DNA from: Furfurilactobacillus milii
GTDB lineage: Bacteria; Bacillota; Bacilli; Lactobacillales; Lactobacillaceae
Assembly (NCBI RefSeq): GCF_009863985.1
Contig: NZ_WEZT01000002.1
Coordinates: forward strand, 59,888-123,887
Reading direction: 5' to 3'
Length of the DNA stretch: 64,000 nt
Numbering within the stretch: position 1 is the stretch's first letter; each line of letters starts with the position of its first letter. The notes beneath the pieces are model-generated. The model saw nothing but the letters and a program-made list of their open reading frames with translations. It was not told the DNA's origin and did no database searches. Shown here piece by piece: positions 14,724 through 22,842 of the stretch. Both the position numbers and the translations under genes were made by a program.

Positions 14724-14997
14724 TATTAAAGATGTTTGAAAACGAATAATGCATTGAACAAGAGAGTAGTGAATCGTGGTTTTATAGCAAGCTGGTGTTG
14801 ATGGAAGGCCGGTAAACGACGTGTAGCGAAAGTAGCTTGTTGGCAGGTTTGCTGAATACGCTTGAGTGCTGAGCGTTAGTAGGTGAATTCGGGTCACGTC
14901 CGTTAAACCGTGCTTGAGTGGGGTAGCAATACCCAATTTAGGTGGTACCGCGATTAATCGTCCTAATTTTCTGTATGGAAATTAGGACGATTTTTTG
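14724..14997 (+). promoter_or_regulatory. T-box riboswitch, valine (specifier GUA), controlling valS
   Basis: The T-box sequence GGTGGTACCGCG (14941-14952) is followed by a terminator stem CGTCCTAATTT/AAATTAGGACG and T6 (14959-14996). Stem I: the lower helix ACAAG (14758-14762) pairs with CTTGT (14836-14840), flanking AGAGAGTAG (the AGUA loop) on the 5' side. On the 3' side is GAAA-GTA-G, placing the specifier codon GTA at 14832-14834, a valine codon. Uncharged tRNA-Val would stabilise the antiterminator and allow valS transcription. Confidence 0.92.
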
Positions 14998-15082: not shown

Positions 15083-17743
15083 ATGGCAACTAAAGATTTA
15101 CCGACGAAATATGATCCACGTGCCGTTGAAAATGGTCGCTATCAAAAATGGCTGGATGCAGGATTATTTAAACCATCTGGCGATAAAAAGGCCAAGCCTT
15201 ATTCGATTGTTTTGCCACCACCAAACGTTACGGGGAAGCTTCATTTAGGACACGCTTGGGATACCGCCTTGCAAGATATGCTAGTTCGTTACAAACGAAT
15301 GGAAGGCTACGATACATTGTGGGTTCCTGGTATGGATCACGCTGGCATTGCCACGCAAGCAAAGGTTGAAGCACGCTTGCGTGAACAAGGCATTTCTCGT
15401 TACGATCTTGGCCGCGAGAAGTTCGTGGAACAAGTTTGGGACTGGAAGGACGAATATGCCGCTACTATTCATAAGCAGTGGGCTAAATTAGGTCTGTCCA
15501 TGGATTACAGTCGCGAACGGTTTACACTTGACGAAGGCCTTTCTAAGGCTGTTCGTAAGGTCTTCGTTGATTTGTATAACAAGGGTTTGATCTATCGTGG
15601 TGAATACATTATTAACTGGGATCCACAAGCCCGCACAGCGTTGTCCGATATTGAAGTTATCCACAAGGACGATAAGGGTGCTTTCTACCACGTTAAGTAT
15701 CCATTCACGGATGGCACGACGTATGAAGGCAAGGATTACATTGAAATTGCTACGACTCGTCCCGAAACAATGTTTGGTGACGTTGCTGTTGCTGTTCACC
15801 CGAGTGACGAACGGTATAAGGAATTAGTCGGCAAGCACATCAAGGTACCATTGGTTGACCGCGAGATTCCGATTATTGCGGACGAATACGTTGACCCTGA
15901 GTTTGGAACGGGGATGGTTAAAATCACGCCAGCTCATGACCCAAACGACTTTCTGGTAGGTAACCGTCATAATCTGAAACGGATCAATACCATGAATGAG
16001 GACGCAACGTTAAACGAAAATGCCGGTAAGTATAACGGGATGGATCGTTTTGACGCTCGTAAGGCCATTGTTCAAGACTTGCAGGACGGTGGCTGGATGC
16101 TAAAGATTGACCCAATCGTGCACTCAGTTGGTCACTCAGAACGGACCGGTGTGCAGGTTGAAGCCCGTCTTTCAACCCAGTGGTTTGTTAAGATGAAGCC
16201 ATTGGCAGAGCAAGCATTGGATCACCAAAAGACAGATGACAAGGTCACGTTCTGGCCTTCACGGTTTGAAGATACCTATGAACAGTGGATGAATAACGTT
16301 CATGACTGGGTTATTTCCCGTCAACTATGGTGGGGTCACCGGATTCCAGCTTGGTACAATAAGCAAACTGGTGAAACGTATGTTGGCATGGAAGCACCGA
16401 AGGACGAAGAAAACTGGACTCAAGATCCAGATGTTTTGGATACGTGGTTTAGTTCCGGCTTGTGGCCGATGACGACTATGGGCTGGCCAGACACTGATAA
16501 TCCAGATTTCAAACGGTATTTCCCAACTGATGATTTGGTTACTGGTTACGATATCATTTTCTTCTGGGTATCCAGAATGATGTTTGAATCGGTTGAATTT
16601 ACTGGCAAACGGCCGTTTAAGAACGTGCTGATGCATGGTTTGATGCGGGACAATCAAGGCCGTAAAATGAGTAAGTCACTCGGCAACGGGATTGACCCAA
16701 TGGATGTCATCGATAAGTACGGTGTCGATGCCATGCGCTGGTTCTTGGCTAACGGTTCAACGCCAGGTCAAGATGTTCGTTATGATACGACCAAACTTGA
16801 TGCGGCGTGGAATTTCATTAACAAGATTTGGAATGCTAGCCGTTACGTCATTATGAATTTAGGCGACATGGAGAAACCAGTATTGCCAGACAAAGCAAAC
16901 TGGAATTTGGCGGACCGGTGGATTTTGAGTCGGTTGAACCAAACGGTCGCTGACGTTCATCGCCTGTTCGATAAGTTTGAATTTGGTGAAGTTGGTCGTG
17001 CACTTTATAATTTCATCTGGAATGACCTGTGTGACTGGTACATTGAAATGACCAAGGAAGTGCTTAACGGGGATGACGAAGCCGCTAAGAAGAACACACA
17101 AAATGTCTTGGGTTATGTTCTTGACCAGACGTTGCGTTTGATGCATCCACTGATGCCGTTCGTAACGGAAGAACTATGGCAAGACATGCCGCATGAAGGT
17201 GAATCCATCATGGTGGCGGACTACCCAGTTGTTCACGATGACTTTGATGATGCCAAAGCTGAAACTGACATGGGTCGCTTAATTGAGTTGATCACTGCGG
17301 TTCGTAATATTCGTGGTGAAGCCAATGCACCGATGAGTAGTGCCGTTGAACTGCTGATTAAGACCAATAATCCAGAATTGAAGACACTGTTTGAAACGAA
17401 CCGTGATTTTGTGGATCGGTTCTGTCACCCGAGTGACTTGCAGATTGGACCAGATGTTGTGGCACCAAAACTGGCCATGTCAGCCATCATTTCTGATGCG
17501 GAAGTTTACATCCCGTTAGCTGAATTGATTAACTTGGATGATGAAATTGCGCGTCTTGAAAAAGAAGTCGCTAATTTGCAGAATGAAGTAACCCGTTCCG
17601 AAAAGAAACTGGGTAATGAACGCTTCGTTGCTAATGCGCCAGAAGCAGTTGTCGCAGAAGAGCGAAGTAAGCAAGCTGATTGGCAACAAAAACTAACAGC
17701 AGCCACTAGCCGTTTGGCAGAGGTTAAAGCGAGCCGTAATTAA
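15083..17743 (+). CDS. valS: valyl-tRNA synthetase
   Basis: Class Ia synthetase that charges tRNA-Val. 886 residues, normal for the family. The HIGH-type motif is in [16 protein letters not shown] (about residues 46-61). The CP1 editing domain spans about 190-345, and KMSKS is in [12 protein letters not shown] (about 528-533). The anticodon-binding domain and a C-terminal coiled coil (about 820-886, [21 protein letters not shown]) follow. ATG start with GAAAGGA. It is expressed from the T-box promoter and ends in a strong terminator at 17791-17846. Confidence 0.98.
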
Positions 17744-19817: not shown

Positions 19818-19849
19818 AACAGTGGAAACGACCTGTTTTCACTGTTTTT
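19818..19849 (+). terminator. radC terminator
   Basis: AACAGTGGAAAC and GTTTTCACTGTT form a 12-bp stem with one wobble, a 5-base loop and a following TTTT tail. Confidence 0.75.
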
Positions 19850-19854
19850 TCTAT

Positions 19855-19862
19855 GGTATACT
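19855..19862 (+). promoter_or_regulatory. mreB extended -10 promoter
   Basis: TGGTATACT gives an extended -10 (TG-N-TATACT) just after the radC terminator, about 50 bases before the mreB start. No convincing -35 box is seen. Confidence 0.5.
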
Positions 19863-19910: not shown

Positions 19911-20924
19911 GTGTTTGGATTAGGACAAAAAAACATCGGCATCGACTTGGGAACTGCCAACACACTTGTATATATTGACGGCAAGGGCATCGTTGTACGC
20001 GAGCCTTCTGTTGTTGCACGTAACACGAATACAGGTGAAGTGGTTGCAGTTGGTCAAGAAGCACGTAAGATGCTGGGTCGTACCCCCGGTAGCATTTCAG
20101 CTATTCGACCAATGAAAAACGGGGTTATTGCCGATTATGATACGACGGTAGCCATGATGAAGTATTACATTCAAAAGGCCCTCGGTCGGTCTTCTGAAAA
20201 ACCATACATCATGGTATGTGTGCCAAGTGGGATTACTGAAGTTGAAAAGCGGGCAGTGATTGATGCTACTCGTGTGGCTGGTGCCCGTGATGCATACGTC
20301 ATTGAGGAACCTTTTGCAGCCGCCATCGGTGCCGGTCTTCCTGTCATGGATCCAACTGGTAGTATGGTTGTTGACATTGGTGGTGGGACTACCGATGTTG
20401 CCACGATCTCACTCGGTGGGATTGTATCCAGTCGGTCCATTCGTATGGCTGGCGACAAGCTCGATGAGTCAATTGTTGCTTTCGTTCGTCAAAAGTACAA
20501 TTTATTGATTGGTGAAACGACAGCGGAAAACTTAAAGATTCAAATTGGTTCTGCTTCTGTTGAAGCTTCTGAAAGCATGGATGGCGCATCAATCCGAGGC
20601 CGTGATTTGATTTCTGGTTTGCCAAAGACCATTGATGTTACTGCTGAAGATGTTGCCAAAGCAATTCACGACACCATTGTTGAAGTGATTGCTGCCATTA
20701 AGGAAACACTGGAAGAAACCTCACCTGAAATTGCGGCAGACGTTATCGATCATGGGATTGTCTTGACCGGTGGTGGTGCATTACTGAAGAATCTTCAGGA
20801 TGTTATTTCTGAAGCAACCAAGGTGCCAGTGTTCATTGCCAATGAACCACTCGACTGTGTGGCTATTGGTACTGGTGAATCGTTGAAGAGTATTGACGTC
20901 ATGAAACGGCGCAACAACCGTTAA
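19911..20924 (+). CDS. mreB: rod-shape-determining actin homologue MreB
   Basis: Actin-like ATPase that forms membrane-associated filaments guiding sidewall peptidoglycan synthesis. The start is GTG at 19911 ([22 protein letters not shown]), preceded by a GAAGGGA site; an ATG at 19872 would add 13 atypical residues. 337 residues. The phosphate-1 loop is [10 protein letters not shown] (8-17), phosphate-2 is [11 protein letters not shown] (about 159-169), and the adenosine motif is [11 protein letters not shown] (about 283-293). First gene of mreBCD, with an unusual 177-base gap before mreC that holds a folded RNA candidate. Confidence 0.97.
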
Positions 20925-20936
20925 TAATTCGAAAAT

Positions 20937-21065
20937 GTGTGGCACAAAGCATTGGTCTTGGTCGACAAAAATAATGTGTGAAAACGACATTGTTTTTGTC
21001 CAGACCGCGTCAACGGACGTTGAAAGTGGTTAGATAACCGCGACGCCAACGCGTTTGTGTCGCAC
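20937..21065 (+). ncRNA. structured RNA candidate between mreB and mreC (three-way junction)
   Basis: By hand-pairing, a 129-base segment folds compactly. P1 has 12 bp (20937-20948 with 21054-21065, two G-U). P2 is a hairpin of 5 plus 14 bp (20954-21006), separated by a 5/1 internal loop. P3 has GCGTC/GACGC (21007-21011 with 21042-21046) continuing into a hairpin at 21026-21041 with an AGAT loop. P1 is followed directly by TTTTT. The mreC ribosome binding site lies about 25 bases further on. The family is not recognised. It may be a regulatory leader, a processing site or a partial terminator inside the mreBCD operon. Confidence 0.5.
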
Positions 21066-21101
21066 TTTTTGATTGTGATGTTTTTAGACTTGGAGGTAAC
21101 A

Positions 21102-21950
21102 ATGCATAGATTCTTTTCAAACCGACGACTCGTAATCATCGCCGTGGGAATCATTACATGCCTGGGACTATTGACGTTATCGGTGACGGTTCGTAATCGT
21201 CGAAATACACCACCGATCATTCAACAATTTGGGAATGATGTGGCTGGTTTTGCTGACCGAGTGGTAAGTGTACCTGTTGGTGGCGTCGGTGCTGGGGTCA
21301 ATTCGATCTCTCAGTTGTTAAGCACGTATGATGAAAATCAGAAGTTAAAACAACAAGTTGATCAAATGGCCCAGGACAAGGTTCGTTTGCAAACAACTGA
21401 AAATGAAAATAAAGAATTACGTAGCGAAGCCAAGTTAAACAATAGCTTGATTGATTACCAGCCAATTACGGCTGGTGTTATTGCTCGAACACCATCGGCA
21501 TGGCAGAATCAATTGGTTATCGGCAAAGGTAAAACCAGTGGCATCAAGAAAAACATGCCTGTTCTTGCGGGCAAGGGATTGATTGGCCGCGTGATTGAGG
21601 TCAATCAAACCAACAGTAAGGTTGAGTTGATTTCTGATGATACTGACACCGCTAACCGGTTTGCTATTCAGGTCACTAATGCCGGTGGTGAGACGGTTAA
21701 TGGCATTGTGACTGGCTATGATAAAGACAAAAATCTGTTAGAAATGGGTCAGATCACGACTAAGGTTGCCATTAAAAAGGGCGATAAAGTGACAACTAGT
21801 GGACTCGGCGGCATAACCCCTAAGGGACTGTTTGTTGGCACGATTGTCTCAACCAGCTCTGACGATTATGGCTTGGCAAACAAGGTTTACATCAAGCCGG
21901 CGGGCAATCTTGGAACGGTTAACGTTGTTACAGTTGCCGCAAAACAATAA
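21102..21950 (+). CDS. mreC: rod shape-determining protein MreC
   Basis: Bitopic membrane protein whose extracytoplasmic part scaffolds the elongasome. The start ATG at 21102 (MHRFFSNRRLVIIAVGIIT) follows TTGGAGGT; an in-frame ATG at 21057 lies inside the upstream RNA structure and is rejected. 283 residues. One transmembrane helix (about 9-29) is followed by a coiled coil (about 80-112, ENQKLKQQVDQMAQDKVRLQ) and two beta domains ending in AGNLGTVNVVTVAAKQ. mreD follows after 16 bases. Confidence 0.94.
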   Translation: MHRFFSNRRLVIIAVGIITCLGLLTLSVTVRNRRNTPPIIQQFGNDVAGFADRVVSVPVGGVGAGVNSISQLLSTYDENQKLKQQVDQMAQDKVRLQTTENENKELRSEAKLNNSLIDYQPITAGVIARTPSAWQNQLVIGKGKTSGIKKNMPVLAGKGLIGRVIEVNQTNSKVELISDDTDTANRFAIQVTNAGGETVNGIVTGYDKDKNLLEMGQITTKVAIKKGDKVTTSGLGGITPKGLFVGTIVSTSSDDYGLANKVYIKPAGNLGTVNVVTVAAKQ

Positions 21951-21966
21951 ATAGGGGGATGATGAC

Positions 21967-22494
21967 ATGCGTGAATCAAGCTTACGCTGGACGTTTATTA
22001 TTGGCCTTCTGTTGAGTGTGTTTTTGGATGGCACGATCAGCCAGCAGTTCGCTGGCCATTTATTCCGCAGTTCGGCGACGGCTGTGCCAGAGATTACTAC
22101 GCTGTGGTTGCTTTGCGCGTCTTTCTTTGAAGATCAATATCATATGCCAACATATTGGTTTGCAGTTTTCGCTGGCGTGGTTTTTGACCTCTTTTACAGT
22201 GGCTATTGGGGCGTATACCTGTTTATTTTCCCAGTTATCGTATGGTTAGCTCGTACTTTACGACAAGTGCTTCCCGTTAATTTATTTGCGACATTGCTGG
22301 GCGGTTTTTTAGGTTTTACCATTCAACCATTATTGAGTTGGTCGGCCTTACAAATGATTGGTGGCACTGGTACGTCATTCGCTGATTTTATGGTAATCGA
22401 TCTGGCACCAACGTTGGCCCTAAATGAAGTGATTCTGTTGATCTTGTATGTGCCATTACGCCAACTTTATTTGCGTGGTGCACGTGTTCAGTAA
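21967..22494 (+). CDS. mreD: rod shape-determining protein MreD
   Basis: Integral membrane partner of MreC. 175 residues with about five membrane helices and few charged residues apart from the N terminus (MRESSLRW) and the C terminus (LRQLYLRGARVQ). The identity follows from position after mreC, length and topology; MreD is poorly conserved. The start ATG has AGGGGGATG upstream. In many lactobacilli minC and minD follow mreD. Here a T-box promoter starts 30 bases after the stop. Confidence 0.9.
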   Translation: MRESSLRWTFIIGLLLSVFLDGTISQQFAGHLFRSSATAVPEITTLWLLCASFFEDQYHMPTYWFAVFAGVVFDLFYSGYWGVYLFIFPVIVWLARTLRQVLPVNLFATLLGGFLGFTIQPLLSWSALQMIGGTGTSFADFMVIDLAPTLALNEVILLILYVPLRQLYLRGARVQ

Positions 22495-22560: not shown

Positions 22561-22842
22561 AACTTAAAAATATGAATGAAATGACATTGAACAGAAGAGT
22601 AGATGACAGGCTTGTCCAGAAAGTAATCGCTGCTGTGATGATTACCATGACTGTTGTTGAAACACATCTGTGAGTCGTTTGACTGAATTTATGAAGTAGG
22701 TTAAACCGGTCGGTCCGTTACCCCAAGGAGTTTATAAACAAACTCGTTGAGTCAGTTACTGTGAAGTAATTGAAAGCTTGAGGTGGAACCGCGCGAACAC
22801 GCCCTCTTTAGTCACTAGGATGACTAAAGAGGGCGTGTTTTT
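22561..22842 (+). promoter_or_regulatory. T-box riboswitch, module 1, histidine (specifier CAC)
   Basis: A complete T-box. Stem I lower helix ACAGA (22591-22595) pairs with TCTGT (22667-22671). The 5' loop side is AGAGTAGA with AGUA, and the 3' side is GAAA-CAC-A, so the specifier CAC (22663-22665) reads histidine. A small stem III (ACTC-GTT-GAGT, about 22742-22752) precedes the T-box sequence AGGTGGAACCGCG (22781-22793). The terminator is an 18-bp stem at 22797-22836 with a T-rich tail. It controls the downstream amino-acid ABC transporter. Confidence 0.88.

Follow-up and report, generated by a model that had tools for sequence, protein, structure and literature searches.

The mreBCD genes of Furfurilactobacillus milii lie within the 64,000-nucleotide stretch of DNA that we analyzed (the window), and they raise the question of what the sequence between mreB and mreC, the sole long gap within mreBCD, might do. 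The mreB coding region (19911-20924, + strand) begins with GTG, ends with a stop codon at 20922-20924, and encodes a 337-residue protein with 100% identity to MreB of F. milii FUA3430 and 99% identity to those of F. milii C5 and F. rossiae. The mreC coding region (21102-21950, + strand) starts with ATG at 21102 behind a GGAGG ribosome-binding site (21092-21096, + strand), and mreD (21967-22494, + strand) begins 16 nt 3' of mreC. The gap from the mreB stop to the mreC ATG is thus 177 nt, the length given in an earlier note on this DNA, which had proposed that the gap holds an undescribed RNA with a three-way junction.

Fold of the mreB-mreC element

Folded as RNA, positions 20937-21065 reached -56.6 kcal/mol (z = -5.7), and none of 200 shuffles was as stable, in agreement with the proposal of a real structured RNA on the + strand. 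The opposite strand was less stable (-44.1 kcal/mol, z = -3.8), as expected if the RNA that contains the G-U pairs comes from the + strand; the two G-U pairs of the closing helix that had been read as a sign of RNA are present at 20940:21062 and 20942:21060. The same element formed in a longer fold that reached into both mreB and mreC (20880-21130), and a single structure dominated the fold of the full gap.

The closing helix, P1, has the 12 bp described earlier (20937-20948/21054-21065, pair probabilities 0.83-1.0) and extends inward through 20949-20956/21045-21052, such that its strands span 20937-20956 and 21045-21065 (+ strand). Immediately 3' of P1, as the note had stated, lies a T5 tract (21066-21070, + strand), the proposed site of termination. 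Upstream of P1, the A-rich 5' extension UCGAAAA (20929-20935, + strand) can pair with 21066-21072, i.e., the T tract plus two bases, with A20932-A20935 able to pair with T5 itself. U residues are only moderately frequent in the tail beyond T5 (GATTGTGATG), and the branched part above P1 greatly exceeds the size of that in a textbook terminator; termination could therefore be inefficient. P1 encloses a long hairpin, P2 (20960-21006, + strand), whose strands 20960-20979 and 20984-21006 form about 19-20 bp with a CA bulge, corresponding to the predicted 19-bp hairpin with one asymmetric loop; P2 is nearly perfect, and its pair probabilities are near 1 for most of the hairpin.

The remainder of the junction did not fold as had been supposed. 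An 11-bp arm with a mini-hairpin, which we took to mean GCGUC/GACGC plus GUGGUU/AACCGC, was not recovered, as GCGUC/GACGC had a pair probability of 0.00 and cost 3.7 kcal/mol. In its place were two small hairpins. The first (21007-21023, + strand) has 5 bp in an uncertain register, either GCGUC/GACGU or UCAAC/GUUGA (pair probability ~0.4), the latter being preferred by the consensus fold. The second, GUGGUU-AGAU-AACCGC (21026-21041, + strand), pairs 21026-21031 with 21036-21041 at probabilities of 0.7-0.9 and carries one G-C to A-U double change in the metagenome-assembled genome (MAG) UBA11204. Since these two hairpins replace the third arm, the junction is better drawn as four-way than as three-way.

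The element is single-copy and specific to its locus

BLAST and a covariance model each found one genomic copy of the element, and we therefore rejected a dispersed repeat (REP, BOX, or MITE-like), for which many copies elsewhere in the genome would have been expected. The suggestion of a small inserted element is likewise unsupported, because there are no other copies and because counterparts of both the closing stem and P2 occur in the mreB-mreC gap of other genera. In the Rfam scan that the earlier note had recommended (4227 models, riboswitches and leaders included), the element had no match above the gathering threshold, and a permissive search of 20800-21200 gave chance-level matches only, so we also rejected a known RNA family. 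The description of the RNA as undescribed holds insofar as it is absent from Rfam, but the element is not a free-standing class, as terminator-like structures occupy this gap in most Lactobacillaceae (see below). The only Rfam matches within the window were two T-box leaders on the + strand, one (14745-14968) upstream of an 886-residue open reading frame at 15083 that looks like a valyl-tRNA synthetase, and the other (22578-22809) 3' of mreD and upstream of an amino-acid ABC transporter operon.

The search of close relatives for the structure found the whole fold in F. milii, F. rossiae, and UBA11204. In F. siliginis the closing stem and T tract are kept, the interior is shorter, most inner arms are missing, and P2 is not kept; indeed, the inner arms vary strongly between species. 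In most Secundilactobacillus species with long gaps, the core of the closing stem is the same (5' GUG.GG followed by C or U; 3' strand, e.g., UGUCGCAC followed by UUUUU) and the arms differ. When run against a family sample of 61 genomes, the whole-element covariance model found only the window's own copy; at the loci of relatives it scored strongly in F. milii, F. rossiae, and UBA11204, weakly in F. siliginis (E = 0.004), and at chance level in a Paucilactobacillus mreB-mreC gap (E = 0.13). These results indicate that the whole fold is specific to Furfurilactobacillus. The element is thus real, locus-specific, and structurally unusual.

Compensatory changes in the closing helix

For P1 we aligned 13 Furfurilactobacillus and Secundilactobacillus sequences, ungapped, with 10 nt per strand placed by flanking anchors; the alignment was assembled by hand with an artificial GAAA spacer. 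Standard pairs filled 89% of the cells, and four pairs showed double-sided changes, 15 cells in all. Across 500 shuffles, which ignore relatedness, none matched the paired cells, the double-sided cells, or the covariation score, and sliding the partner strand by 1-3 columns lowered pairing to 24-61%. Column 4 was mismatched in 8/8 Secundilactobacillus rows. Because the alignment was handmade and the species are related and not independent, this result supports, rather than proves, selection on P1 pairing. In the third arm as proposed in the earlier note, 2/5 GCGUC/GACGC pairs are by inspection broken in UBA11204. A T5 or T6 tract follows P1 at this position in every Furfurilactobacillus relative and in the majority of those from Secundilactobacillus.

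Other features of the Secundilactobacillus gaps were also apparent. In S. silagei and eight other Secundilactobacillus there is an 18-bp inverted repeat, AAATAATTCCGTATGTTC-N7-GAACATACGGAATTATTT, that is conserved almost letter for letter while the surrounding arms vary. As it occurs at one locus per genome we rejected a mobile repeat, and since it has hardly any compensatory change, unlike a hairpin kept for structure only, it could serve as a binding site for a protein or as a separate terminator. The gaps of S. paracollinoides, S. collinoides, and S. similis are 477, 471, and 217 nt long, with minimum free energies of about -197, -175, and -79 kcal/mol, respectively, and that of S. paracollinoides contains internally repeated segments.

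Terminator-like structures in the mreB-mreC gap of Lactobacillaceae

We surveyed 107 distinct Lactobacillaceae mreB-mreC gaps for a closed structure that has a folding energy of -8 kcal/mol or lower and leads directly into a T-rich tail, accepting long structures and judging significance against 60 dinucleotide shuffles (p<0.05). Such a structure was present in 101/107 gaps, and 84/107 beat the shuffles (40 on the reverse strand), although many of the species are closely related and the 84 are not a count of independent events. A few genera with very short gaps were without a terminator-like structure. Lactiplantibacillus and Levilactobacillus have GCGGGAAG-n-CTTCCCGC ahead of TTATTT or TTCTTT, and Ligilactobacillus and Liquorilactobacillus have AGGTTGG-n-CCAACCTCTTAATTTTT; the structures in these four genera look like plain terminators. 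The element is the Furfurilactobacillus version of the terminator-like structure found across the family. Separately, in five Liquorilactobacillus gaps an outer second stem encloses the ordinary terminator hairpin in a nested arrangement and ends in T4-T5 immediately before the mreC ribosome-binding site.

The closest relatives of P2 were found in two other genera. The mreB-mreC gap of Limosilactobacillus and Paucilactobacillus contains a hairpin, UGGUYRCAAAAC..GUUUUGUCCA, that has no Rfam family and shows double-sided changes in three lower-stem pairs. In each of the four genomes where we found the strict motif it had a single occurrence, at mreB-mreC, and we rejected a genome-wide repeat on this basis. 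A 19-nt alignment with a single gap matched P2 to the Paucilactobacillus 5' arm (0/2000 shuffles), and the match to the 3' arm was weaker (p 0.005-0.009), the two arms of one hairpin not being independent evidence. After Furfurilactobacillus itself, the best matches to P2 were in the Paucilactobacillus and Limosilactobacillus gaps. Although they share the gap and the sequence match, the hairpin in those genera stands alone and is followed by a U-rich tail, whereas P2 is an arm inside P1. Given the resemblance of P2 to this simple hairpin, the simplest history would be that P2 began as an ancestral terminator hairpin and came to lie inside the element once a newer closing stem and T tract had arisen outside it.

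Promoter motifs at mreBCD

An extended -10 promoter element, TGGTATACT (19854-19862, + strand), precedes mreB. In a comparison of 12 relatives, it was conserved in Furfurilactobacillus and slightly altered in Secundilactobacillus; F. siliginis and most Secundilactobacillus read TGGTATAAT. Of 75 relatives, 74 had a promoter-like site 5' of mreB, against 22 expected. By contrast, motif scans found no excess downstream: the last 200 nt of mreB had 6 promoter-like sites versus 12 expected, and the 107 gaps had 6 extended -10 sites versus 5.4 expected and 7 sites with both hexamers versus 6.7 expected. Motif scans can miss promoters; with sites in the gap and at the mreB end not above chance, we rejected a separate mreCD promoter. 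Given the motif of mreB's own promoter and the lack of excess in the gap, mreCD mRNA is probably fed by read-through from mreB. A terminator-like hairpin (19818-19846) 3' of a radC-like gene adjoins the mreB promoter on its upstream side, such that terminator-like structures flank mreB on both sides.

A probable leaky internal terminator and its alternatives

A stem that runs into a U tract, pairing that is kept, a position shared with the plain terminators of relatives, and the apparent dependence of mreCD on read-through together suggest that the element is likely a leaky internal intrinsic (Rho-independent) terminator that sets MreB above MreC and MreD. With regard to form, the G+C-containing stem followed by a U tract that is typical of intrinsic terminators is present, with P1 ending at 21065 and T5 following at 21066-21070, whereas the compact hairpin with a short loop is not, the apical part being branched and ~90 nt long. 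A simple consensus terminator scanner (loops of 3-8 nt) did not list the site, and owing to this and to the branched apex we class the element as terminator-like and not as a canonical terminator. With regard to position, it lies, like terminators that set stoichiometry, between two genes of an operon with no promoter between them in the motif scan. Tuning of the ratio of MreB to MreC/MreD, one of the roles put forward in the earlier note, is thus the most plausible reading, although the third arm and the free-standing RNA class that accompanied it were not upheld.

Under this model, mreB would be transcribed from its own promoter, and as polymerase moves out of mreB, folding would begin with P2 and the small hairpins, drawing the ends of the closing stem together. 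P1 would then zip beside the U tract, releasing part of the RNA polymerases. Their release would yield a short mreB mRNA whose 3' end is protected, while the remaining polymerases would read through to produce mreBCD mRNA, the outcome being MreB produced in excess over MreC and MreD. We infer termination, its partial extent, the folding order, and the ratio of the proteins from the structure, the P1 changes, the T tract, the relatives, and the promoter motifs. Our literature search turned up neither a Term-seq paper on a related species nor transcript-end data for F. milii.

A rather unlikely alternative is that the element acts in processing or stabilization, with RNase III or another nuclease cutting P2 and the remaining helices protecting the mreB 3' end, such that mreB mRNA would outlive mreCD mRNA without termination of transcription. 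The length (about 20 bp) and near-perfect pairing of P2 would suit such a role, and stem-loops in the cip-cel operon are reported to control ratios via mRNA processing (PMC10311766). However, P2 is not kept in F. siliginis, while all Furfurilactobacillus and most Secundilactobacillus retain the T tract adjoining P1, and the simple structures of relatives resemble ordinary terminators.

We consider it unlikely that the element is a regulated attenuator, in which a ligand, a protein, or an alternative fold selects between termination and read-through. This idea draws on nine Secundilactobacillus gaps. There, the 5' strand of P1, GGGAGUGAG at the gap start, has two possible partners: the P1 3' strand or, over nine pairs, CUCACUCUCC, which lies immediately before the mreC ribosome-binding site. 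The A.G or G.G mismatch of P1 disappears in this second arrangement, which has A-U, G-C, or G-U at that position, and the Shine-Dalgarno region can additionally form CUCCA/UGGAG. The shared strand GGGAGUG(A/G)G is kept in 9/9 Secundilactobacillus, among which S. odoratitofui and S. angelensis are without the P1 partner and S. folii is without the other. This pairing could be a mutually exclusive termination/translation switch, but the evidence is thin, since the downstream strand has a local partner too in several species and the forced alternative costs 2-8 kcal/mol in those that keep P1. Moreover, the second partner was not seen in the Furfurilactobacillus window, where one structure dominates the full-gap fold, nor did we see a conserved core like that of a ligand-binding RNA. 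It seems quite unlikely that the gap in both genera is a regulated branched attenuator in which the P1 5' strand either joins the terminator or pairs close to the mreC ribosome-binding site; if it were, termination and mreC translation would respond jointly to a cell-wall or growth signal. Finally, a functionless neutral remnant or drifting inverted repeat in an intergenic gap is very improbable, for although the inner arms vary strongly between species and F. siliginis is without most of them, P1 has compensatory changes and most relatives have a terminator-like structure at the site.

Known systems and implications

Transcription of the E. coli mreBCD genes was reportedly studied by Wachi and colleagues in 2006. 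In other bacteria, an mreB-only transcript has been observed. In Legionella pneumophila, a terminator is annotated at the mreB end and a monocistronic mreB mRNA of ~1.1 kb was seen by Northern blot (PMC4630621); the F. milii element likewise follows mreB, although L. pneumophila belongs to another phylum. Anabaena makes two transcripts, one of 3 kb for mreBCD and one of 1.3 kb for mreB only, and the authors proposed that NtcA bound at mreC halts elongation (PMC7593598), so that the monocistronic mreB is ascribed there to NtcA and not to a terminator hairpin. The ABC importer operons of Ruminiclostridium, in which Northern blots showed that internal terminators set transcript ratios (PMC9045158), resemble the leaky terminator proposed here: the site follows a first gene that is needed in excess of those downstream, and the terminators have a long stem, a 5' stretch that pairs with the U tract, unpaired stem regions, and a modest U tract. 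They differ in that the Ruminiclostridium structures are stem-loops with measured termination, while the Furfurilactobacillus structure is branched, with a closing stem and arms, and is predicted from sequence. Internal terminators that set stoichiometry are therefore already known, and the branched mreB-mreC form is a new variant; its function is probably ordinary in kind, that of an internal terminator, and its form unusual.

Control of the ratio of MreB to MreC and MreD in rods is poorly described beyond a few models. If the leaky-terminator reading is true, leaky read-through would feed mreCD across most Lactobacillaceae, with the leak setting the ratio, and the branched form in Furfurilactobacillus suggests that terminators can gain arms while the closing stem persists.
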